In this document: positions 1-11,145 of the stretch, in pieces
Layout of the letters: the number at the start of each line of letters is the position of its first letter
Numbering within the stretch: position 1 is the stretch's first letter
NCBI GenBank assembly: GCA_017652545.1
Contig: JAGCAV010000527.1
Location: 1-11,145, forward strand
Length of the DNA: 11,145 bases
Direction: 5' to 3'
Source of the DNA: Lachnospiraceae bacterium
GTDB taxonomy: Bacteria > Bacillota_A > Clostridia > Lachnospirales > Lachnospiraceae
Notes under the pieces: generated by a model
The model's database searches: none
What the model was told of the DNA's origin: nothing
The model's input: the letters and a program-made list of their open reading frames with translations, nothing else
Made by a program: the position numbers and the translations under genes

Positions 1-1056
1 GACCGGAGCCGGATCCAGTTTGACTTCCTGGCCAACAAACCGGTGCCCGGGGAATATGACGGGGAAATACGCGAGATGGGAGGGAGGGTCTTTGTCAGTC
101 CCGGTCTCAACCCGCTGCACTTTCCCGGATACAAACGGTTCGTGGCGGATCTGGTGCACGGCAGTTCAGAAATAAGGATCGTCCACGCGCATAACGAAGC
201 GATGGGGTACTATGCCCTCAAAAGCGCAAAAGACGCCGGAATCCGCGTCAGGATCGCGCATGCGCACAATACGCAGATCATCCGGGATTACAAGTATCCG
301 CTGAAAATGGTCTGCAAGCAGCTCCTTCCCGGTGCAGCAACGGATTACTGGAGCTGCGGCAGGGACGCGGGAATCTACTACTATGGAGAAAAGCGCTGGA
401 ACGCGTCCGGATTCATCCTGCACAACGCGATCGATCTGTCGAGATTCGGGTTCCGGCAGGAAGAACGTGAACGCCTGAGGCAGCTTTATGGTCTGGAAAA
501 AAACTTTGTGATCGGCCATGTCGGAAGGTTCAATGTCCAGAAAAACCACAGCCGTCTGCTGGATATTTTTGCGGAAATCGCAAAGGCAGCTCCCGATGCC
601 CGCCTTGCGCTAATCGGTACAGGTGAGCTGGAGCAGGATGTGAAGGAAAAAGCCAGGACCATGGGAATTCTGGATAAGACGCTCTTCCTGGGGCAGATGG
701 CGAACGTCAACGAATGGTATCAGGCGATGGACTGCTTCGTGCTGCCTTCACTGTTTGAGGGGCTTCCTGTGGTCGGAATCGAGGCCCAGGCGGCCGGTCT
801 GCCTTGCTTCTTCTCTGACCGCGTCACGGATGAGGTGCTGCTCTCGGGGGAGGCGCGCAGAATATCCCTTGAGGCGGAAGATGCGCAGTGGGCGCAAGAG
901 ATCCTGGCTGTAAGGCAGTCGAAAACGGATCGGGCGCAGGGGATGGATATTGTCCGCCAGGCAGGTTATGACATTCATACGGAAGCACGGAAGCTGCAGG
1001 AGATCTATCTGGAGATGGCAGAGCGCGCATATTCCCCAAAGCAGCAGCGGCGCTGA
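1..1056 (+). CDS. Glycosyltransferase family 4 (GT-B fold), 5' end missing
   Basis: The reading frame is open from the first base (codon 1 = base 1) to TGA at 1054-1056, giving 351 visible residues. The true start lies upstream of the window: a GTG at base 43 is only an internal valine, because the preceding codons (DRSRIQFDFLANKP) continue naturally into the family's N-terminal domain. Counted from base 1, the C-terminal nucleotide-sugar-binding half is clear: HVGRFNVQKNH at about 173-183 is the usual start of the second Rossmann domain. PSLFEGLPVVGIEAQAAG carries the EX7E motif of retaining family-4 enzymes, with E253 and E261. It should transfer a sugar from an activated donor onto a lipid-linked repeat unit at the inner membrane face. 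The sugar and linkage cannot be read from sequence. It resembles EpsF/capsule-type transferases and is followed at 59 bases by a second family-4 enzyme. Confidence 0.93.
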   Translation, partial: DRSRIQFDFLANKPVPGEYDGEIREMGGRVFVSPGLNPLHFPGYKRFVADLVHGSSEIRIVHAHNEAMGYYALKSAKDAGIRVRIAHAHNTQIIRDYKYPLKMVCKQLLPGAATDYWSCGRDAGIYYYGEKRWNASGFILHNAIDLSRFGFRQEERERLRQLYGLEKNFVIGHVGRFNVQKNHSRLLDIFAEIAKAAPDARLALIGTGELEQDVKEKARTMGILDKTLFLGQMANVNEWYQAMDCFVLPSLFEGLPVVGIEAQAAGLPCFFSDRVTDEVLLSGEARRISLEAEDAQWAQEILAVRQSKTDRAQGMDIVRQAGYDIHTEARKLQEIYLEMAERAYSPKQQRR

Positions 1057-1114
1057 GTGAAGGGGACCGGGCAGTTAAGACAGCCCGGTCATTGTGAAAG
1101 GATGGAATGAAAAC

Positions 1115-2257
1115 GTGCAGAAAAAACCGAAACGGATCGCAATGATCGGACATAAATTTATTCCATCCCGGGACGGCGGGGTGGAAGTGGTTGTCAGCAA
1201 CCTCGCGCCGCATCTTGTGAAAAACGGATATGATGTGACCTGTTATAACCGGACGAACAAACAGTTCAAAAAGCTTCGGAAAGAGAAGAGCCTTCCGCGG
1301 GAATACCGGGGCGTTCACCTGATCTGGACGCCGACCGTTGACCGCCGTGGGCTGGCAGCCATGTCATCTTCGATCATCGCAACGGTAATGGCTTCCTTCC
1401 GCCCCTTTGATCTGGTGCATTTTCACACGGAGGGACCGTGCGTCCTTTGCTGGCTCCCCAGGCTGCTGGGCAAGAAGGTCGTGGTGACGGTCCACGGACT
1501 GGATCACAGGCGTCAGAAATGGGGCAGGTTCGCTTCAGCGTACATCATGCAGGGCGAGAAAGCGGCTGTCCGCCATGCCAGCAGCATTATTGTGCTGAGT
1601 GAGGGGGTCCGGACATATTTCCGTGAGAAATACGGAAGGGAAACGGTGCTGATCCCCAACGGTATCGATCCGGCTGAGATCCGGCCCGCCTGTGAGATCA
1701 CAAAACAGTTTGGTCTCGCTCCACGGGAGTACATCCTGTTTCTGGGACGCCTGGTGCCGGAGAAAGGCATCCATTACCTGATCAAAGCCTATAAGAAGCT
1801 GCAAACGGACAAAAAACTGGTGATCGTCGGCGGCACGTCGGATACGAATGAGTATGTGCGTCAGCTGTATGACATGGCAGGGGATGACCCCTCCATCATT
1901 TTCACCGGCTTCCAGCAGGGGCTCATCATGGAGGAATTATACAGCAACGCGTATCTGTATGTGCTGCCCAGCGATCTGGAAGGCATGCCGCTTACCCTTC
2001 TGGAGGCCATGAATTACGGATGCTGCTGTGTGACCTCTGATATTGGCGAATGCGCGGACGTTATGGACGGCTCCGGCTTTACTTTCCCCCGCGGGAATGT
2101 GGAAGCTCTGCGGGATACGCTGCAGGATCTGTGCGATCATCCGGAAAAGGCGGAGACGCAGCGGGGAGAAGCCCGGAAAGTCGTTTCATCCAAATACACG
2201 TGGGAGGATATTACGGCACAGACCGACAGGCTGTACAGAAAGCTTCTGGACAGGTGA
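1115..2257 (+). CDS. Glycosyltransferase family 4, rhamnosyltransferase-like
   Basis: Second GT-B glycosyltransferase of the operon. The frame also contains an upstream GTG at 1094, but that codon has no ribosome site. GTG 1115 has AAAGGA at 1097-1102 with a 12-base spacer, so I prefer it (380 residues); ATG 1142 is a further option. Near the N terminus, IGHKFIPSRDGGVEVVV is the glycine-rich acceptor-side loop seen in many polysaccharide rhamnosyl/galactosyl-type transferases, some of which carry a DUF1972-like N-terminal domain. FLGRLVPEKG begins the donor-binding domain at about residue 209. SDLEGMPLTLLEAM carries the EX7E pair E289 and E297. There is no signal peptide or clear membrane helix, so it should act at the cytoplasmic membrane surface. 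Its position between another transferase and the flippase supports a role in repeat-unit extension. The donor sugar is unknown. Confidence 0.92.
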   Translation: MQKKPKRIAMIGHKFIPSRDGGVEVVVSNLAPHLVKNGYDVTCYNRTNKQFKKLRKEKSLPREYRGVHLIWTPTVDRRGLAAMSSSIIATVMASFRPFDLVHFHTEGPCVLCWLPRLLGKKVVVTVHGLDHRRQKWGRFASAYIMQGEKAAVRHASSIIVLSEGVRTYFREKYGRETVLIPNGIDPAEIRPACEITKQFGLAPREYILFLGRLVPEKGIHYLIKAYKKLQTDKKLVIVGGTSDTNEYVRQLYDMAGDDPSIIFTGFQQGLIMEELYSNAYLYVLPSDLEGMPLTLLEAMNYGCCCVTSDIGECADVMDGSGFTFPRGNVEALRDTLQDLCDHPEKAETQRGEARKVVSSKYTWEDITAQTDRLYRKLLDR

Positions 2258-2332
2258 TCCCGGGCATGTGATCAGCATCATCCCGCCGGAAATCTCCTGA
2301 GACTCAATTGAGAAAGGATCACAGAAAAGGTC

Positions 2333-3883
2333 ATGAAACTTGAGCGCACCAGGAATGCTGCCAGGAATATCGTGTTTGACGGAACACTGGAAATGGTCAA
2401 CATGCTTTTTCCCTTCGTCATCCGCTCTGTCATGCTGCATTTTCTGGGAACTGAATATCTGGGGCTGAATGGTCTGTTCAAGTCGCTTCTTACTTTTCTG
2501 AACCTGGCGGAGCTTGGCGTGGGCAGTGCCATGGTGTTCAGCATGTACAAGCCGATTGCCGAGGATGATACCCCGACCATCTGCGCATTGCTGCGCCTGT
2601 ATCGCACTTTCTACCGGATCATCGGTCTGGTCGTCGCGGCGACGGGACTTGTTCTGATGCCTGTCCTGCCGAACCTCATCAAGGGCGACCTTCCTGCCGA
2701 CATGAACCTGTACGTTCTTTACCTGATGAATCTGGGAAACACGGTGATGACGTACTGGCTGTTTGCATATAAAGGCAGCCTGCTGATGGCGCATCAGCGC
2801 AGGGACGTGATCAGCAAGGTCACCCTGCTCGTGCGGATGACGGAATATACCCTGAAAATTCTGATTCTTGTATTAACTCGGAATTATTATCTGTATCTGT
2901 CGGTTCAGCTGCTGTGCCAGCTCGCCGTAAACCTGCTGATCGCAGTGTGCGCAACAAAAATGTACCCGGGGTACGTGACTGTCGGGAAACTGCCGAAGAA
3001 GAAAACCCTGGATATCTTCAGAAGAGTGCGGGATCTGTTCACCTCCAAGCTTTCCGCAACGGTCTTTGATGCCGCGGATACGCTGGTCATTTCCGCCTTC
3101 ATGGGACTGACTGTCCTGGCGCTTTATCAGAATTATTATTTTATCATCACGGCGCTGCGCATGATGCTGATCGTGTTTCTCAATGCCTGTATGGCCGGTG
3201 TCGGCAATAAGCTGGTCATGGAGAGCAAAGAAGCAAATTACCGGGATCTGGAAAAGATCAGCCTTCTTTTCCTCTGGATCCTGGGCGTGACCAGTTCCAT
3301 GCTGCTGTGTATGTATCAGCCGTTCATTCATGTATGGATGGGCGAAGACAATATGCTTGCCGTCGGACTGGTGTTCTGCTTTGTCGTCTATTACTATTCA
3401 ATGGGCGCCAATAAGCTGATCAATATGTTCAAGGACGCGGCAGGCATCTGGAGGGTGGATCGCTGGAGGCCTCTGACTGCTGCTCTGGCCAATCTGAGCC
3501 TGAACCTGATAACCGTGCGCTTCATGGGGCTGTATGGGGTTCTTCTTTCCTCGGTTGTCTCCATTGTCTTCATCCAGATTCCCTGGCTGTTCCACAACCT
3601 TTTCCAGGAGGTCTTCCCCCGTCAGTGCATGGGGAAGTATGCCAGGCTCTTTGGCGGGCTGACGGCGGTTGCCCTGATCTCCTGCGGAGCATCGTGGTTT
3701 GTCTGCGGACTGTTTAAGCTGAATGTATGGTCCACCCTCGTATTGAACGCCGCCCTGAGCTTCCTGGTGCCGAATCTTTTCTTCTTTGCTGTGTATGGGC
3801 GAAATCCTGTTTTCAGGGAAAGTCTTTCGCAATTGAAACGGATCCTCCGATCCGGGGGCCGGACATCGGGCACACCGGATTAG
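2333..3883 (+). CDS. Wzx-like polysaccharide repeat-unit flippase (MOP/MATE-like superfamily)
   Basis: A 516-residue, strongly hydrophobic protein with about 12-14 likely membrane segments, the usual size for Wzx/RfbX translocases (about 420-520 residues). ATG 2333 is preceded by AAAAGG with a short spacer. The N-terminal stretch TEYLGLNGLFKSLLTFLNLA followed by ELGVGSAMVFSMYKPIAEDD (about residues 40-80) is typical of clostridial O-antigen/capsule flippases annotated as lipopolysaccharide biosynthesis proteins. Basic cytoplasmic loops separate hydrophobic blocks, for example KLPKKKTLDIFRRVRD near 220-235. It should move undecaprenyl-diphosphate-linked oligosaccharide from the inner to the outer membrane face. 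The gene lies between transferase genes, which fits a Wzx/Wzy pathway. No Wzy polymerase is visible here, and a polymerase role for this protein is less likely given its family-specific N terminus. Confidence 0.9.
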   Translation: MKLERTRNAARNIVFDGTLEMVNMLFPFVIRSVMLHFLGTEYLGLNGLFKSLLTFLNLAELGVGSAMVFSMYKPIAEDDTPTICALLRLYRTFYRIIGLVVAATGLVLMPVLPNLIKGDLPADMNLYVLYLMNLGNTVMTYWLFAYKGSLLMAHQRRDVISKVTLLVRMTEYTLKILILVLTRNYYLYLSVQLLCQLAVNLLIAVCATKMYPGYVTVGKLPKKKTLDIFRRVRDLFTSKLSATVFDAADTLVISAFMGLTVLALYQNYYFIITALRMMLIVFLNACMAGVGNKLVMESKEANYRDLEKISLLFLWILGVTSSMLLCMYQPFIHVWMGEDNMLAVGLVFCFVVYYYSMGANKLINMFKDAAGIWRVDRWRPLTAALANLSLNLITVRFMGLYGVLLSSVVSIVFIQIPWLFHNLFQEVFPRQCMGKYARLFGGLTAVALISCGASWFVCGLFKLNVWSTLVLNAALSFLVPNLFFFAVYGRNPVFRESLSQLKRILRSGGRTSGTPD

Positions 3884-3926
3884 TTATTGTCCCGGATACC
3901 GACGAAAGAAAGGGGAACAAGAGAGA

Positions 3927-4949
3927 ATGATCAGCGTAATCGTGCCGGTTTATAAGGTGGAGAAATATCTGAGGCGGTGTGTGGACAGTATCCTTGCCCA
4001 GACCTTCCCTGATTTTGAACTGCTGCTGATTGATGACGGCTCGCCGGACGGGTGCCCGCAGATCTGTGACGAATATGCCGGACGTGACCCCCGTGTGAGA
4101 GTCATTCACAAGCCCAACGGCGGACTGATCTCAGCCCGGAACGAAGGGATCCGTGCAGCCGGGGGAGAGTATGTCTGTATTGTGGATGGGGATGACTGGG
4201 CCTGTGAAAACATGCTGCAGTTTATCCATGATACGGTTGAACACTCCCCGGTACCCCTCGATATGGTGCTTTTCGCGGCACACAACGTATATGAGGATCA
4301 TCTGGAAGAAACGGTCAACGAAGTTCCGGAAGGGTTTTATGACAGGGAACGGCTGGAAAAAGAGATCTTCCCGTATTTACTGATCGATTCGCGCAGCGGA
4401 CTTCAGGGAGGTGTGATCCAGGCGCACACCTGGGATAAGGCGTTTAAGCGGGAACTGCTGGCTCAGCATTATACCCGTGAGGAAAGAATCCGCGTCTTTA
4501 CCGATGTGCCCATGACCTATGAATGCCTTCTGTACTCCCGGAATGTACATATATGCAATGAACATCTGTATATGTACAATAAAACGAACGAAGGGTCTAT
4601 CCGCGCAAAGAGCCGCGAGAATCTTCTTACAGAAAGCTTCAGATATCTGATCATGTATATGCGGGAGCATCTTGGCGGTCTGGGACCGTCCACAGACCGT
4701 CAGCTCAACCAGTATGCAGCCATGCTGATCATTCGTACGGGAAAGTGGCGCGCCAGGACGGATCCCTCGCTGCTCGTAGCTGCGCGGCATATGAAGGAAG
4801 GGCTGCGTGAGTCGGATATGCTGTCATTTGTGTCCGTAAAGGGTTTGCCCCGAAAGGTGGGCGCGGTTATATTGTTGTTTAAGATGCGTCTGTATGTACC
4901 GGCCATGCTTCTTTGTGCAGCCAGGGTCAGACAGGAGAAAAGCAGGTGA
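3927..4949 (+). CDS. Glycosyltransferase family 2 (GT-A fold)
   Basis: A 340-residue inverting-type transferase. It begins at ATG 3927 after a purine-rich leader (AAAGGGGAACAAGAGAGA). The GT-A core is complete: SVIVPVYKVEKYLRRCVDSI at the N terminus, the nucleotide-binding DDGS at residues 36-39, SARNEGI at about 69-75, and the metal-binding DxD-type VDGDDW at about 86-91 (D87, D89, D90). HTWDKAFKREL near 166-176 and FTDVPMTYE near 190-200 match the acceptor/base region of WcaA/EpsJ-like capsule transferases. The C-terminal tail is basic with a hydrophobic patch (VGAVILLFKMRLYVPAMLLC) that may anchor it to the membrane. It probably adds a sugar to the lipid-linked repeat unit. Sugar specificity is not readable. 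Confidence 0.93.
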   Translation: MISVIVPVYKVEKYLRRCVDSILAQTFPDFELLLIDDGSPDGCPQICDEYAGRDPRVRVIHKPNGGLISARNEGIRAAGGEYVCIVDGDDWACENMLQFIHDTVEHSPVPLDMVLFAAHNVYEDHLEETVNEVPEGFYDRERLEKEIFPYLLIDSRSGLQGGVIQAHTWDKAFKRELLAQHYTREERIRVFTDVPMTYECLLYSRNVHICNEHLYMYNKTNEGSIRAKSRENLLTESFRYLIMYMREHLGGLGPSTDRQLNQYAAMLIIRTGKWRARTDPSLLVAARHMKEGLRESDMLSFVSVKGLPRKVGAVILLFKMRLYVPAMLLCAARVRQEKSR

Positions 4950-4958
4950 AACAGCCGT

Positions 4959-4978
4959 GATGACACACTGAAGTCATC
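4959..4978. repeat. Short inverted repeat between GT2 and the phosphoglycosyltransferase gene
   Basis: GATGAC (4959-4964) and GTCATC (4973-4978) could form a 6-bp stem with an 8-base loop in the 76-base gap. There is no following T-run, so it is not a convincing intrinsic terminator. It could be a weak mRNA processing or stability structure, or chance. A second small dyad, ATGTTC-AG-GAACAT, follows at about 4989-5002, too tight to form an RNA hairpin. Confidence 0.3.
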
Positions 4979-5025
4979 CGGCAGGGATATGTTCAGGAAC
5001 ATCCGGACAATGGAGGGCAGGTAAA

Positions 5026-6516
5026 ATGTATAAAAGAAGAATACGTGGCTGGTCTCAGCATATTGATTTTATGGTTCTTGACAATCTATGCCTTTTTGTC
5101 AGCCTTCTGATCGGGTTCTTTCTCGTTGAAAAAGAAGGGGTGCTCGTTTCCCGTTTTTTCTGGAGGATGGTTCTGGAAGCCACTCTGGTAAATCTGGTCG
5201 TGATCATTGTCCTGGATACGTATCACAGCGTGCTGCATCATACGCCCTGGGATGAGATGATCAGGCTTCTTGCACAGACAGGATATGTAATCCTCATCCT
5301 TCTGGTCTTCCGGCTGCTGAGCCAGACACCTGAAACCGACCTGGCAAAAATCGCGGTTTATTCCATCCCTCTTTATGTCCTGACCTGCTATATCATGAGA
5401 CAGACATATAAGAGCTTTCTGAGGAAAAAGCATCACATACTCAACCGGCATTCCCTCCTCATCGCGCTTGAAACCTCCCAGATTCCCACGGTTATTCCGC
5501 GCATTCTCAGGTCGAATTACGGAATATACCGGTTCAGCGGCATTGCGCTTATGGGAGATGATCCTTCCGAAACGAAGGCACGGGAGTATCTGCGTTCACT
5601 CAGAGGACAGTTTCCGGAGATCGAAACGATCCCCATCGTAGCCACAGCCGATACACTGGAGCAGTATCTGACCAATAACTGGGTGGATGAGGTATATCTG
5701 GATGTGCCGCCCAAAGACGACCTGCCTGTGGACCTGATCAACAGCCTTATGCTTATGGGCATTACCATACATACCGCCCTCACAAACCTGGACGAGATCG
5801 AATCAAGACATAAAAACGTGGAATGGATCTGTGGTCACCTGACCATCACGACATCCCTTGGCTATATCACGGGTCGAGATGTCCTGCTCAAGCGGCTCAT
5901 GGATATCGCCGGAGGACTGGTCGGTTCCCTGATCACCGTGATTCTCACGATTCCCGTGGGACTGGCCATTTTCGTGTCCGACCCGGGACCCATCTTTTTC
6001 TCACAGATCCGGATCGGCGAGAACGGGAAAAAGTTCAAGATGTACAAGTTCCGCAGCATGTATAAGGATGCGGAAGCACGCAAGAAGCAGCTTGCGCAGA
6101 AGAGCGGTCAGGAGGACCAGCTCATGTTCAAGATGGAACATGATCCGAGGATCATCGGACAGAAGGAGCTTCCCGACGGGAGATGGAAAAAGGGAGTCGG
6201 CGGATGGATTCGGGACCTGTCTGTGGATGAGTTTCCCCAGTTCTTCAATGTGCTGAAGGGAGATATGTCCCTGGTCGGCACCCGGCCTCCGACGGTGGAT
6301 GAATGGGACCGGTACGAACCTTTCCACCGTGCCAGAATGTCTACGCGGCCGGGGATCACCGGCCTCTGGCAGGTGAGCGGCCGCAGCAAGATCCGTGACT
6401 TTGACACGGTGGTCCGCCTGGACCGGGAATACATCGAAAACTGGTCCCTCAAGCAGGACATTCATATTTTATTCAAGACCGTAGGAGTCGTGCTTACCCG
6501 TAAGGGGGCTATGTAG
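5026..6516 (+). CDS. Polyprenyl-phosphate phosphoglycosyltransferase starting repeat-unit synthesis (WbaP/WcaJ type)
   Basis: A 496-residue initiating transferase: it moves a sugar-1-phosphate from a nucleotide sugar to undecaprenyl phosphate at the inner membrane face, the first step of exopolysaccharide or capsule assembly. ATG 5026 follows GGAGGGCAGGTAAA. Residues about 15-125 contain four likely membrane helices. About 140-265 is a Rossmann/CoA-binding-like regulatory domain. The catalytic bacterial sugar transferase domain starts near 285 with LLKRLMDIAGG, a re-entrant hydrophobic helix at about 295-318, and SDPGPIFFSQIRIGENGKKF. The catalytic Asp-Glu pair is D401-E402 in LSVDEFPQFFNVLKGDMSLV, followed by GTRPP and RPGITGLWQVSGRS (441-454). 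Length and architecture match long polyprenyl glycosylphosphotransferases. It is the last gene of the visible operon, although it acts first in the pathway. The sugar (Glc, Gal or an acetamido sugar) is not determinable. Confidence 0.94.
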   Translation: MYKRRIRGWSQHIDFMVLDNLCLFVSLLIGFFLVEKEGVLVSRFFWRMVLEATLVNLVVIIVLDTYHSVLHHTPWDEMIRLLAQTGYVILILLVFRLLSQTPETDLAKIAVYSIPLYVLTCYIMRQTYKSFLRKKHHILNRHSLLIALETSQIPTVIPRILRSNYGIYRFSGIALMGDDPSETKAREYLRSLRGQFPEIETIPIVATADTLEQYLTNNWVDEVYLDVPPKDDLPVDLINSLMLMGITIHTALTNLDEIESRHKNVEWICGHLTITTSLGYITGRDVLLKRLMDIAGGLVGSLITVILTIPVGLAIFVSDPGPIFFSQIRIGENGKKFKMYKFRSMYKDAEARKKQLAQKSGQEDQLMFKMEHDPRIIGQKELPDGRWKKGVGGWIRDLSVDEFPQFFNVLKGDMSLVGTRPPTVDEWDRYEPFHRARMSTRPGITGLWQVSGRSKIRDFDTVVRLDREYIENWSLKQDIHILFKTVGVVLTRKGAM

Positions 6517-8573: not shown

Positions 8574-8612
8574 TACCGGATTCCTCACGGGATTTACGGG
8601 ATGGAGGGGTAT

Positions 8613-9089
8613 ATGATTGAGAAGATCGGAAGCAACTATATCATTAAAGTCGGTATTGTTGTAAAGGATATCCATGAAGCGGCACAGTACTATGAAAAGC
8701 TGTTCTCTCTGGAAGATCGGATCGTGATCAAGAGACAGCGTCCAAAGAAGGATTACTATCCCAAAAGCTATCAGGAATACGGTGGGACCAGGGTCAACGC
8801 GGATCTTACCTGGTTCATTGTGGATCTGAATCCGATCTATCTCCAGATCGTTCAGCCATGCGACGAACGGCCCAGTCCGTGGCTGTCATATCTGAAAGAG
8901 CACGGTCCCGGCGTCTGCTTTATCTCATTCTGTGTCAATGATTTCAAGGACCATGTCGAATTCCTTGAGAGCAACGGACTGGCGATGACTTTTCTTGAGG
9001 AAAAGGGTTTTGAACGCTATGCGTACTTTGATACGCAGGAAAAGCTGGGTTTCACTCTGGAACTGAAGGAGCGCAAGGCCATCGATTAG
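8613..9089 (+). CDS. VOC-fold (glyoxalase/methylmalonyl-CoA epimerase-like) protein with altered metal site
   Basis: A 158-residue protein of the vicinal oxygen chelate superfamily, near the size of methylmalonyl-CoA epimerases. ATG 8613 has GGAGG at 8603-8607 ahead of it; an in-frame ATG at 8601 has no ribosome site and itself overlaps that GGAGG. Two beta-alpha-beta modules are visible: IIKVGIVVKDIHEAAQYYEK (10-29) to YLQIVQP (76-82), and GVCFISFCVNDFKDHVEFLE (100-119) to FTLELKE (147-153). The usual metal ligands are largely replaced: K12 stands where His is expected, Q78 where Glu or Gln occurs, F103 where the second His is expected; only E150 is retained. It may therefore bind a ligand without metal catalysis. 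The stop overlaps the stop of the convergent regulator gene (TTAG at 9086-9089). Confidence 0.82.
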   Translation: MIEKIGSNYIIKVGIVVKDIHEAAQYYEKLFSLEDRIVIKRQRPKKDYYPKSYQEYGGTRVNADLTWFIVDLNPIYLQIVQPCDERPSPWLSYLKEHGPGVCFISFCVNDFKDHVEFLESNGLAMTFLEEKGFERYAYFDTQEKLGFTLELKERKAID

Positions 9090-10873
9090 ATGCGCAGCTT
9101 TCTCCACAATGTGCTCCGGCTGATCCCGAGACGTTTTGCGCAGGCGGATTGATTCATATGTTCCTCGGCCAGTACGCTGCTGATGATCTCTGCCTCGATC
9201 TCATCCAGAGTTCCCGACAGATGAACAGCGTGTTCCGCATCTGAAGATGCGGCAGGAAGGATGGGAGAGAAGCTTTCCTGTATCTCTCCGGCGGTAATGT
9301 ACGAACCGCTGGCATCAGCGACAAGCTGGTGGATCACTTTCTGGAGCTGCTCGAAATTCAGTGTCCAGGGCAGCTGCCTGAGAAGCCGCAGCGCATCTTC
9401 GTCAAACCCGATCACCTGGCGGGACAGCCTTTCATTAAAGTGATTCAGTATGATCCCGCAGAAAGAGGGGAGTTCATTCATCCGGTCGTTCAGGGTCGGT
9501 ATACGGATCGTATATGAGCCTGTGATCAGGTAGAGCTTCTGAAGAAAATGCTCAGAGGCGACGCTCTCCGCCAGATTCCTTGTGGTCGAGGAGATGATCC
9601 GGCAGCGCTGCGGGAGGTGGGTATCTTCTATGAAATCTGTGATCATATTCTGGACGGGAAGGGAAAGCGTATGGATATCGTGAAAATACAGGGTATAGCT
9701 GTTCCCGTATAACGGAGAATTCGGATCGGCGATCATGTTCTCCCAGAGCTTTTCCGTGAGCGTATTACACTTGACAAAGACAAAAGGATCATTCTTTTCG
9801 CTCCCCTGCAGATGGAGCTGTCTGGCCACATATTGACGTCCGGTACCTGGCTGCCCGTAGATCAGTACGGGCAGTTTTGTTTTATTGGTGCTCTCGATCT
9901 GCTTCCGTATGGGCTGCAGGTAAGCTGCGGTGTTAAAAAAGTAATGACGGCGGGCAGGAATCTCATCATAATTCTCTATGGAAATAACACTCTGCCGGGG
10001 AAGATATTTTCCCGCCTCCCGATAATAGAAAACCGCGTAGCTGCTCTCCTGGATCTCCATGGCCTTTCCCCAGATCTCGAAAGTTGTTTCAGACAGCTTT
10101 TTGGTGATATGTATGTAACGGCGTTCGAAGACCTGCGGAGCTGACCGTCTTAAAAATGACTGCAGGGGAGAAGGCGTCTGCGTGCTCAGATCAGAATGGA
10201 GTCTGGTATTGGTATAGAAAAAAGTGCCGGCGCTGTCAAGAATGGCGAGAGAAAAAGGGCTCTGGTCTGCCATAAGCCTGAAAAGATAAAGCCTGTCCCT
10301 GTTTGCTGCAGAGATCATGCAGGCTGCCTGCGCCTGCTGAAATGATTTCCGGATGTCGTCCTCACCCGGAGTGAGAATAACACTGTTGATGCCCGCCTTG
10401 CTCGCAGCCTGCGCGATATCCGCTTCCCCGATCAGCATTTCAACACCTTCATCATACAGGCTGTTCATCAGCTGCCTGGTTTCTTTCTGTGTGCTGACAG
10501 TAAAGATCCGGTAGTCATACTGCATGATCTCGCAGACCTGCCGGACAAGGCGGGCGTGCAGCGCATGCACAACGATGGCGATCTCGCTGCAGTACTGCTG
10601 TGTCTGACGGATCACGCGCAGGACGTCCAGTACTGTCAGTTCCGTTTCGATGACAGGCAGATCGGTCACACCGGTCAGCCTTTCTATGGAACCGGCAGGG
10701 ATGATGACAGCATCCAGGGAGGCTGAACCGTGCATTTCAAGGAAGGAAGCAGCCTGCTGCGCCCCGCCGACGATGATCTGAGTATGATGAGAAGCAAATT
10801 CCGCGGCGATCTTCCTGTAAGTCTGGACCAGCTCCGGAGAAGGCGCGCAGGCGAGAAGATGTAAATGTTTCAT
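9086..10873 (-). CDS. PrpR-type transcriptional regulator with degenerate sigma-54 AAA+ domain
   Basis: A 595-residue regulator. Residues about 5-190 resemble the PrpR N-terminal sensor domain (HLLACAPSPELVQTYRKIA; VIIPAGSIERL). About 200-285 is PAS-like (SPFSLAILDSAGTFFYTN). About 315-540 is an AAA+ sigma-54-activator domain. The C terminus (556-595, SACAKRLGISRSTLWRKLRI) is a Fis-type helix-turn-helix. The AAA+ core is decayed. Walker A reads GQPGTGRQ, with R346 for the catalytic Lys. Walker B reads TLYFHDI, with H398-D399 for Asp-Glu. The segment between them is shortened and lacks GAFTGA, the loop that contacts sigma-54. It probably controls a sigma-A promoter as repressor or activator. 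ATG 10873 lies inside a perfect palindrome and has only a weak Shine-Dalgarno, which suggests low, autoregulated synthesis. A small metabolite ligand is likely, as in PrpR, but unidentified. It is divergent from a secreted-protein gene, its probable target. Confidence 0.88.
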   Translation of the reverse strand: MKHLHLLACAPSPELVQTYRKIAAEFASHHTQIIVGGAQQAASFLEMHGSASLDAVIIPAGSIERLTGVTDLPVIETELTVLDVLRVIRQTQQYCSEIAIVVHALHARLVRQVCEIMQYDYRIFTVSTQKETRQLMNSLYDEGVEMLIGEADIAQAASKAGINSVILTPGEDDIRKSFQQAQAACMISAANRDRLYLFRLMADQSPFSLAILDSAGTFFYTNTRLHSDLSTQTPSPLQSFLRRSAPQVFERRYIHITKKLSETTFEIWGKAMEIQESSYAVFYYREAGKYLPRQSVISIENYDEIPARRHYFFNTAAYLQPIRKQIESTNKTKLPVLIYGQPGTGRQYVARQLHLQGSEKNDPFVFVKCNTLTEKLWENMIADPNSPLYGNSYTLYFHDIHTLSLPVQNMITDFIEDTHLPQRCRIISSTTRNLAESVASEHFLQKLYLITGSYTIRIPTLNDRMNELPSFCGIILNHFNERLSRQVIGFDEDALRLLRQLPWTLNFEQLQKVIHQLVADASGSYITAGEIQESFSPILPAASSDAEHAVHLSGTLDEIEAEIISSVLAEEHMNQSACAKRLGISRSTLWRKLRI

Positions 10874-10882
10874 AATGAAACA
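10866..10882. promoter_or_regulatory. Perfect palindromic operator overlapping the regulator start codon
   Basis: TGTTTCA-TAA-TGAAACA, 7-bp arms and a 3-base spacer, spanning bases -9 to +8 around the regulator's ATG. It differs from the second copy at 10987-11003 by one spacer base. It leaves no room for a strong ribosome site and lies downstream of the predicted regulator promoter, a roadblock-type autorepression position. Assignment to the adjacent Fis-type regulator is inference from proximity and symmetry. Confidence 0.68.
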
Positions 10883-10935
10883 CTCATGATATCAAAAAAA
10901 CGGACAAATCGTTTTGAAAAAGTGAACTATCATTT

Positions 10936-10964
10936 TGTATAACATGATTCTTCACTTGTTTCAA
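10936..10964 (-). promoter_or_regulatory. Sigma-A-type promoter of the regulator gene
   Basis: On the minus strand, TTGAAA (10959-10964), 17 bases, then TATACA (10936-10941), with TGT just before the -10 as an extended element. The start would be near 10929, giving a leader of about 56 bases. The -35 overlaps a TGTTTCA half-site. Confidence 0.6.
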
Positions 10965-10973
10965 GGATAATCA
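10957..10973. promoter_or_regulatory. Degenerate third operator copy on the regulator -35
   Basis: TGTTTCA (10957-10963) is a perfect half-site; after AGG, the partner half ATAATCA matches TGAAACA at 4 of 7 positions. Its centre lies 30 bases from the centre of the 10987-11003 site. A weak site here would directly compete with RNA polymerase at the regulator promoter. Confidence 0.4.
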
Positions 10974-10982
10974 GGGGTTTTC

Positions 10983-11007
10983 AAAATGTTTCAAAATGAA
11001 ACATTTT
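10983..11007. promoter_or_regulatory. Perfect extended palindromic operator upstream of the secreted-protein gene
   Basis: The core TGTTTCA-AAA-TGAAACA sits at 10987-11003. The symmetry extends by AAAA/TTTT on either side, giving 11-bp arms. It lies about 66 bases upstream of the predicted regulator start and about 76 upstream of the tentative start of the rightward gene, an activator-like distance. It is probably bound by the adjacent Fis-type regulator. An intrinsic terminator is unlikely, since neither flanking gene ends here and the stem is AT-rich. Confidence 0.7.
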
Positions 11008-11020
11008 TGAAGCGCTTTCA
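11007..11020. promoter_or_regulatory. Cre-like catabolite response element
   Basis: TTGAAGCGCTTTCA matches the optimal cre TGAAAGCGCTTTCA at 12 of 14 positions. It fits the looser CcpA consensus WTGNAANCGNWNNCW, aligned at 11006-11020, with one mismatch (T for G at position 3). It touches the right arm of the preceding palindrome. It suggests CcpA control of the rightward gene, as expected for a carbon-source uptake gene. Confidence 0.5.
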
Positions 11021-11024
11021 ATTG

Positions 11025-11042
11025 GAAGACGAATCTGTCTTC
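11025..11042. repeat. Inverted repeat GAAGAC-N6-GTCTTC
   Basis: Six-bp perfect arms around GAATCT, located between the cre-like box and the rightward gene's tentative -10. It could be another operator or part of the promoter geometry; no T-run follows. Confidence 0.35.
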
Positions 11043-11058
11043 GCGTAGGATGCATTTG

Positions 11059-11064
11059 TATGAT
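11059..11064 (+). promoter_or_regulatory. Tentative -10 box of the secreted-protein gene
   Basis: TATGAT, 33 bases before the start codon. The hexamer 17 bases upstream (TGTCTT) is a poor -35, so the promoter may need an activator. An alternative is TTGGAA (11022-11027), 18 bases, TAGGAT (11046-11051). No -24/-12 sigma-54 element with correct spacing was found. Confidence 0.3.
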
Positions 11065-11082
11065 AACAATTCATTCTACACG

Positions 11083-11090
11083 AAGGAGGT
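11083..11090 (+). promoter_or_regulatory. Strong ribosome binding site of the right-edge gene
   Basis: AAGGAGGT, close to full anti-Shine-Dalgarno complementarity, with a 7-base spacer to ATG 11098. It fixes the start of the truncated gene and implies high translation. Confidence 0.85.
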
Positions 11091-11097
11091 TATTCTT

Positions 11098-11145
11098 ATG
11101 AGAAAGGCATGGAAAAAAGTTCTCACCGTGATGGCGGCCGTTGCA
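11098..11145 (+). CDS. Exported protein, 3' end missing (signal peptide only)
   Basis: Only 16 codons are visible: MRKAWKKVLTVMAAVA. The basic n-region (RKAWKK) followed by a hydrophobic, alanine-rich run is a typical signal peptide start. The very strong ribosome site and the cre-like box fit an abundant extracellular or lipid-anchored solute-binding protein of a sugar or organic-acid transporter. That function is inference from context; no lipobox or mature sequence is in view. It is divergent from the PrpR-type regulator and is probably its main target. Confidence 0.75.
   Translation, partial: MRKAWKKVLTVMAAVA

Follow-up and report, generated by a model that had tools for sequence, protein, structure and literature searches.

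A candidate operator of a Lachnospiraceae family of PrpR_N-type regulators and its position relative to predicted σA promoters

An 11,145-nt stretch of a Lachnospiraceae contig (referred to here as the window) carries two near-identical palindromes beside a gene for a PrpR_N-type regulator, raising the question of which protein recognizes them and which of the neighbouring genes they control. The features of the window that bear on this question are as follows.

8601..9089, plus strand: glyoxalase-fold (VOC) gene, convergent with the regulator gene (domain search)
9086..10873, minus strand: regulator with PrpR_N, degenerate Sigma54_activ AAA+, AAA lid and HTH_8 domains (domain search and ORF call)
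10866..10882, no strand: site C, TGTTTCATAATGAAACA, over the regulator start codon; proposed autoregulatory site
10936..10964, minus strand: candidate promoter of the regulator gene, TTGAAA-N17-TATACA, TG-extended (by eye; prediction only)
10957..10973, no strand: site B, degenerate copy (three mismatches) over a candidate regulator promoter element
10987..11003, no strand: site A, TGTTTCAAAATGAAACA; proposed site of activation for the divergent operon, centred at -63 from the predicted start
11022..11051, plus strand: weak σA promoter predicted for the divergent gene, TTGGAA-N18-TAGGAT (prediction only)
11100..11145, plus strand: first 16 codons of the divergent gene, resembling a signal peptide

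The palindromes and their surroundings

A motif search of the whole window with TGTTTCA-N3-TGAAACA returned exact matches at 10866-10882 and 10987-11003, in agreement with the initial annotation, which had described two near-identical 17-bp palindromes. These have a 3-bp A/T spacer, differ from each other at one base of that spacer and lie 121 bp apart from centre to centre. The view that such a pair is very unlikely to have arisen by chance also held, as five matches with up to three mismatches were found in the window compared to a mean of 0.41 in shuffled sequence, with none of 200 shuffles reaching five. Other inverted repeats with 7-bp arms are present in the window, with identical arms found only in these two, and site A extends into a 23-bp inverted repeat (10984-11006). 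The placing of both palindromes in the intergenic region was correct for site A; site C, however, is partly coding: its bases 10866-10873 are the first eight of the regulator reading frame (ORF 9086-10873), so that the start codon is covered by the palindrome.

The promoters listed above have alternatives. For the divergent gene, another -10 element (TATGAT) would place site A at -76, and for the regulator the program-predicted candidate was instead TTGAAA (10994-10989) with GATTAT (10972-10967). No intrinsic terminator was found in 10800-11145, and the reading of the palindromes as terminators was dropped. Next to site A, on the side of the predicted divergent promoter and ahead of it, lies a near-palindrome, TTGAAGCGCTTTCAA (11008-11022), which we take to resemble a CcpA cre site and which may add catabolite control. 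At the far end of the window, positions 1-6516 hold glycosyltransferase-like ORFs (identified by reading) and a bacterial sugar transferase at 5026-6516 (domain search); this is probably a polysaccharide cluster unrelated to the palindromes.

The motif, the regulator and its relatives

A pattern-based contig scan, which reaches close relatives only, identified two orthologues of the regulator, L001 (42%) and L002 (46%), both from uncultured Lachnospiraceae. In both, the regulator is divergent from genes for a solute-binding protein and two ABC permeases (those of L001 being identified by reading, and the first of them also by domain scan), with genes for glyoxalase-fold, Gfo/Idh and SDR (L001) or FMN-dehydrogenase (L002) proteins nearby. 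The glyoxalase-fold gene of the window shares 72% identity with its positional counterpart in L002. From this synteny, the divergent gene of the window probably encodes a sugar-ABC solute-binding protein.

A wider family, approximately 23-29% identical to the window regulator (tblastn), was collected in overlapping draws of 397, 392 and 397 genomes, of which 23, 21 and 29 were positive at strict thresholds, with only the best three candidates per genome scored in most genomes. Protein searches at the thresholds used returned the window's own protein as the only match among the candidates scored, while genus-level searches (13 and 4 genomes) revealed no further close orthologue and viral contigs yielded no relative. 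In a phylogenetic tree, the window regulator, L001 and L002 group together with full support, with their deeper placing being less sure (93/59).

With the motif defined beforehand on the window, we searched the 250 bp upstream of 45 non-redundant loci, among them L001 and L002. These remained from 53 distinct loci after removal of the window itself, L006 and L007 (outside the family), three short upstream regions and two near-duplicates. With up to two mismatches, 41 sites were found in 25 of the 45 regions (mean of 0.3 and maximum of 2 in 30 shuffles), and with up to three mismatches there were 72 sites in 38 regions (mean of 2.2, maximum of 7), leaving seven regions without a site even at this threshold. 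In the consensus built from these 72 sites, position six may be C, T or A, and the spacer is A/T. The spacer length appears fixed, in that spacers of 0, 1, 2, 5 and 6 bp gave no site with up to two mismatches in the same 45 regions, a spacer of 4 bp gave three, and spacers of 7 and 8 bp gave one each; within the coding DNA of the 45 regulator genes themselves (no more than 1200 nt per gene), the 3-bp spacer gave none and spacers of 2 and 4 bp one each.

The shuffles used for the family motif, for the canonical control and for the promoter register (both described below) were drawn by first-order resampling, and genomes that are related do not count as independent cases; protein clustering, which addresses this relatedness in part, left a site with up to three mismatches in 27 of 33 representatives at 60% and in approximately 11.2 of 14 clusters at 45% (approximately 3.5 of 14 with up to two mismatches). 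The initial annotation had expected the motif to recur upstream of orthologues. This was not so for the two closest, as the regulator upstream regions of L001 and L002 lack it at up to two mismatches, their degenerate sites having three and four mismatches respectively (shuffle P of 0.037 and 0.333 taken alone), but it was so for the wider family in the 25 of 45 regions noted above. A separate family clade (L033, L038, L042, L045, L046 and L062) has weaker or altered sites, such as TGTTTATTTTTCAAACA, and this drift of the operator could be matched to changes in the HTH.

Canonical EBPs provided a control, with 17 loci remaining from 20 after exclusion of two without the loop pattern and one with 4 bp of upstream sequence. 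None of the 17 upstream regions had a site with up to three mismatches, 0.46 regions being expected from shuffles, in a set that comes from 6 of the 16 genomes searched, is not all of the Fis-type HTH, includes one locus (L154) that is cut and is less A/T-rich than the family (GC 0.37 vs 0.30). The window sites, being TGT-N11-ACA, also fall within the EBP operator class TGT-N10-12-ACA (PMC6615313, as far as the accessible part of that paper goes). Taken with the 25 of 45 family regions against 0 of 17 canonical ones, this favours the proposal of the initial annotation that the palindromes are the operator of the adjacent regulator, and by sequence comparison they are very probably its binding sites.

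As regards the protein itself, the PrpR_N domain was clearly detected (7.9e-25), and the score of 133.2 bits against TIGR02329 (PrpR equivalog) lies below the curated cut-off of 499.2. Alignment of 51 family proteins (the window regulator among them) with 18 canonical rows revealed the GAFTGA loop to be missing from all 51; its presence in the canonical rows is not a result, as most of these were picked by the loop pattern. The Walker-B Asp-Glu was found in none of the 51 family proteins (HD takes its place in the window regulator) and in all 18 canonical rows, and 48 of the 51 retain the Walker-A lysine, which is Arg in the window regulator. Of the features of a σ54-dependent EBP, an AAA+ domain with HTH_8 was found, and the GAFTGA loop, the Walker-B Asp-Glu and a -24/-12 promoter were not. 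This EBP architecture with lost σ54 contact is that of the σ54-independent EBP paralogues (TyrR, DhaR and HupR).

A σ54 promoter at the target was rejected, as no -24/-12 element with up to two mismatches was found in the intergenic region of the window and the 45 family upstream regions resembled shuffled sequence in this respect (5 of 45 at two mismatches). Sigma54_DBD (PF04552, RpoN) was not found in 29 of the 48 host genomes of family regulators, many of which are draft assemblies, and was missing from G048, G646, G722 and G298 although their regulator contig is approximately as long as the whole genome. The genome of L002 has none and that of L001 has one.

Position of the sites relative to promoters and alternative readings

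Promoters resembling those of σA were predicted in the direction of the divergent gene with simple custom weights, the transcription starts being predictions. In a scan of all offsets, a 3-nt window at -62 scored 27, while 60 flank shuffles reached at most 15 anywhere upstream of -45. Counted per locus, over a range chosen after the register had been noticed and the all-offset scan seen, 25 of the 38 site-bearing loci have a site centred at -64 to -61 (mean of 6.9 and maximum of 11 in 100 shuffles), compared to at most 13 of 38 at other offsets; the remaining 13 loci have no predicted promoter in this register. A stricter promoter score gave 16 loci (mean of 2.0, maximum of 6; other offsets at most 7), and the -10 element alone 27 (mean of 12.6, maximum of 19). 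When sites were restricted to up to two mismatches, the loose score gave 15 of 25 loci (mean of 4.2, maximum of 11), a weaker result, and the strict score 9 (mean of 0.9, maximum of 3). The site centre lies at -63 in the window, -62 in L001 and -64 in L002, the last being a site with four mismatches that is outside the 25. No common helical phase between paired sites was apparent, as judged by eye.

Sequence comparison supports the motif with its fixed spacer and family association, together with the promoter register and the loss of σ54 contact. From these we infer binding, activation rather than repression, a ligand, autoregulation and the identity of the window operon. In this reading, the adjacent regulator (PrpR_N/AAA+/Fis-HTH, with its σ54-contacting loop lost) would bind the palindromes as a dimer. 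Its N-terminal domain would respond to a metabolite inside the cell, for which a sugar acid or related intermediate is a guess from the neighbouring genes. In its effector-bound form, the regulator would bind site A, approximately 63 bp upstream of the start of the divergent operon, and recruit ordinary σA RNA polymerase there in a manner similar to CRP at class I promoters; activation of this kind from site A is likely. Binding at sites B and C, in the promoter region and over the start codon of the regulator gene, would limit the regulator's own expression, and such autoregulation has a moderate probability. Activation of the divergent operon is the better-supported role of site A, with control of the regulator itself being secondary. 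As a whole, we consider it quite likely that the protein is a σ54-independent, class-I-like activator of the divergent, probably sugar-ABC, operon that also regulates itself.

The same regulator could bind the same sites mainly as a repressor that is relieved by its effector. Site C covers the regulator start codon, and in the direction of the regulator, 20 of the 38 loci have a site centred at +1 to +3 (mean of 8.6 and maximum of 16 in shuffles), or 15 with the strict score (mean of 2.3, maximum of 6). The same position is more weakly represented in the direction of the target, at 15 of 38 (mean of 10.1, maximum of 15) and 9 with the strict score (mean of 3.1, maximum of 8). This enrichment in the regulator direction suggests autorepression in part of the family. 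However, the dominant register for the divergent gene is at -64 to -61, clear of the promoter, and positions such as these are usually occupied by activators rather than repressors. The predicted target promoter of the window is moreover weak, as expected if an activator is needed, and a mainly repressing role is considered unlikely.

Alternatively, site C may act as an RNA hairpin that hides the regulator start codon and exerts translational control, with site A being unrelated. An 11-bp stem is indeed predicted at the start codon (10850-10900, minus strand; -9.3 kcal/mol, z of -2.9, matched by 3 of 200 shuffles), and the start codon has no clear Shine-Dalgarno sequence by eye. Nevertheless, site A has the same arms, the family motif occurs at many distances from the start codon, and the hairpin is absent in L001 and L002; it was rejected on this lack of conservation, leaving a very small probability. 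Slightly less probable still is another, distantly encoded factor for which the position beside PrpR_N-type regulators would be coincidental. This would accord with binding by the regulator being proposed from comparison, but the sites are enriched upstream of the family and absent upstream of the 17 canonical EBPs, and their form fits operators of Fis-type EBPs (PMC6615313, within its accessible part).

Lastly, degenerate parS sites bound by ParB/Noc would share identical 7-bp arms with the window palindromes (those of what we take to be the parS consensus, TGTTTCACGTGAAACA) and parS-like copies with a CG core are present in relatives, yet this identity was rejected as extremely improbable on the spacer, which is 2 bp with a CG core in parS and 3 bp of A/T here, the 2-bp form being absent from the 45 regulator upstream regions (up to two mismatches) and the CACGTG copies of relatives clustering elsewhere, such as the 18 of 18 G300 matches on one contig. 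Those of G300 (C125, 21288-23236) form a dense array of 18 parS-like copies with up to one mismatch, many of them approximately 60 bp apart.

Neighbouring operons and comparison with known systems

Binding and activation by the adjacent regulator being the preferred reading, the genes next to the sites indicate what may be controlled. At 33 loci, the closest minus-strand ORF upstream was identified with a simple script and scanned for domains; those found were SBD_N/NBD_C of acid-sugar-kinases at 15 loci, Fe-ADH at six, PCC at three and a solute-binding protein at two (the L001 and L002 loci), with the rest being various or none. Among three loci scanned for several genes, a set of kinase, Fe-ADH, DHDPS-like and PdxA-like genes is present at both L104 and L105, and PCC with a 3-hydroxyisobutyrate-dehydrogenase-like gene at L109. 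Since kinase, Fe-ADH or PCC genes are found in the wider family and a solute-binding protein in L001 and L002, the operator appears to be shared across the family while the adjacent operon differs between the window clade and the rest.

Searched genome-wide with up to one mismatch, the motif was found at 34 places in 16 genomes compared to 12 for a reversed control pattern, so that most distal matches may be due to chance. Sixteen of the 34, counted by coordinates, adjoin a family regulator, a count that is biased, since a strong site beside the regulator was the reason for choosing 14 of the 16 genomes. Eight of the remaining 18 were examined, of which six were intergenic and two lay inside ORFs. 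Five distal sites were checked for register, with L129 and L130 fitting before plausible targets and L125, L126 and L132 not clearly doing so. A copy at -62 precedes an acid-sugar-kinase/Fe-ADH operon in G112 (C50; L129, 6329), and another at -63 precedes tctB-tctA in G001 (C14). The family regulator of G112 adjoins an AraC-type gene, with the acid-sugar-kinase/Fe-ADH operon lying elsewhere in the genome. A copy in G258 (C148; L125, 3014) lies between divergent genes for a Na:sulfate/citrate-type symporter and a CoA-transferase, outside the -62 register, and is a possible further target. In L132 the copy follows a Cas2-like gene rather than preceding it, and chance probably accounts for this match.

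Extended to the family, the proposal would be that a broad group of Lachnospiraceae/Lachnospirales regulators, built on the σ54 EBP architecture, came to activate σA promoters in the class I manner of CRP, having lost the σ54 loop and Walker-B and kept the AAA+ body, with TGTTTYANNNTGAAACA at -62/-63 controlling sugar-acid and sugar-ABC operons even where RpoN has been lost; the chances for and against this are about evenly balanced. The retained AAA+ body may serve as a dimer scaffold that senses a nucleotide or the effector. For a family whose members match σ54-activator models, an operator and a predicted promoter geometry would thereby become available, from which the regulons are predictable from sequence. 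The family could also be used as a natural experiment on the way in which an ATP-driven remodeller of σ54-polymerase becomes an ordinary recruiter of housekeeping RNA polymerase.

Among the papers listed in the literature searched, which leaves out many subscription papers, none was on a TGTTTCA-N3-TGAAACA operator or its promoter register. In the accessible part of PMC6615313, the UAS of fifteen Clostridiales EBP groups are described as inverted TGT/ACA separated by 10-12 bp, and the EBPs concerned resemble the window regulator in their Fis-type HTH and in PrpR_N being among the N-terminal domains listed. They differ in being GAFTGA-checked and tied to σ54 promoters, whereas the window family has no GAFTGA and no σ54 promoter was found; that part of the text makes no mention of 'acid sugar', 'threonate', 'erythronate' or 'pdxA'. 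TyrR, DhaR and HupR are described in the accessible part of PMC3162934 as EBP paralogues without σ54 contact that were shown to be σ70-dependent, with VpsR judged as probably not σ54-dependent, and they share with the window regulator the EBP architecture and a changed GAFTGA. Unlike these, the window family is also without the Walker-B Asp-Glu (51 of 51) and has the -62/-63 register across a broad family. The N-terminal domains of TyrR, DhaR and HupR differ from that of the window regulator as well.

PrpR, the activator of propionate catabolism, has the same arrangement of PrpR_N, AAA+ and HTH_8, from which the window regulator departs in its score (133 bits against a cut-off of 499) and its lack of GAFTGA; no propionate genes were seen beside the regulator in the window, L001 or L002. 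At CRP class I promoters, a palindromic dimer site is centred near -61.5 of a σ70/σA promoter. The palindromic site of the window, predicted at -63, is similarly placed, although CRP itself is unrelated to the window regulator.
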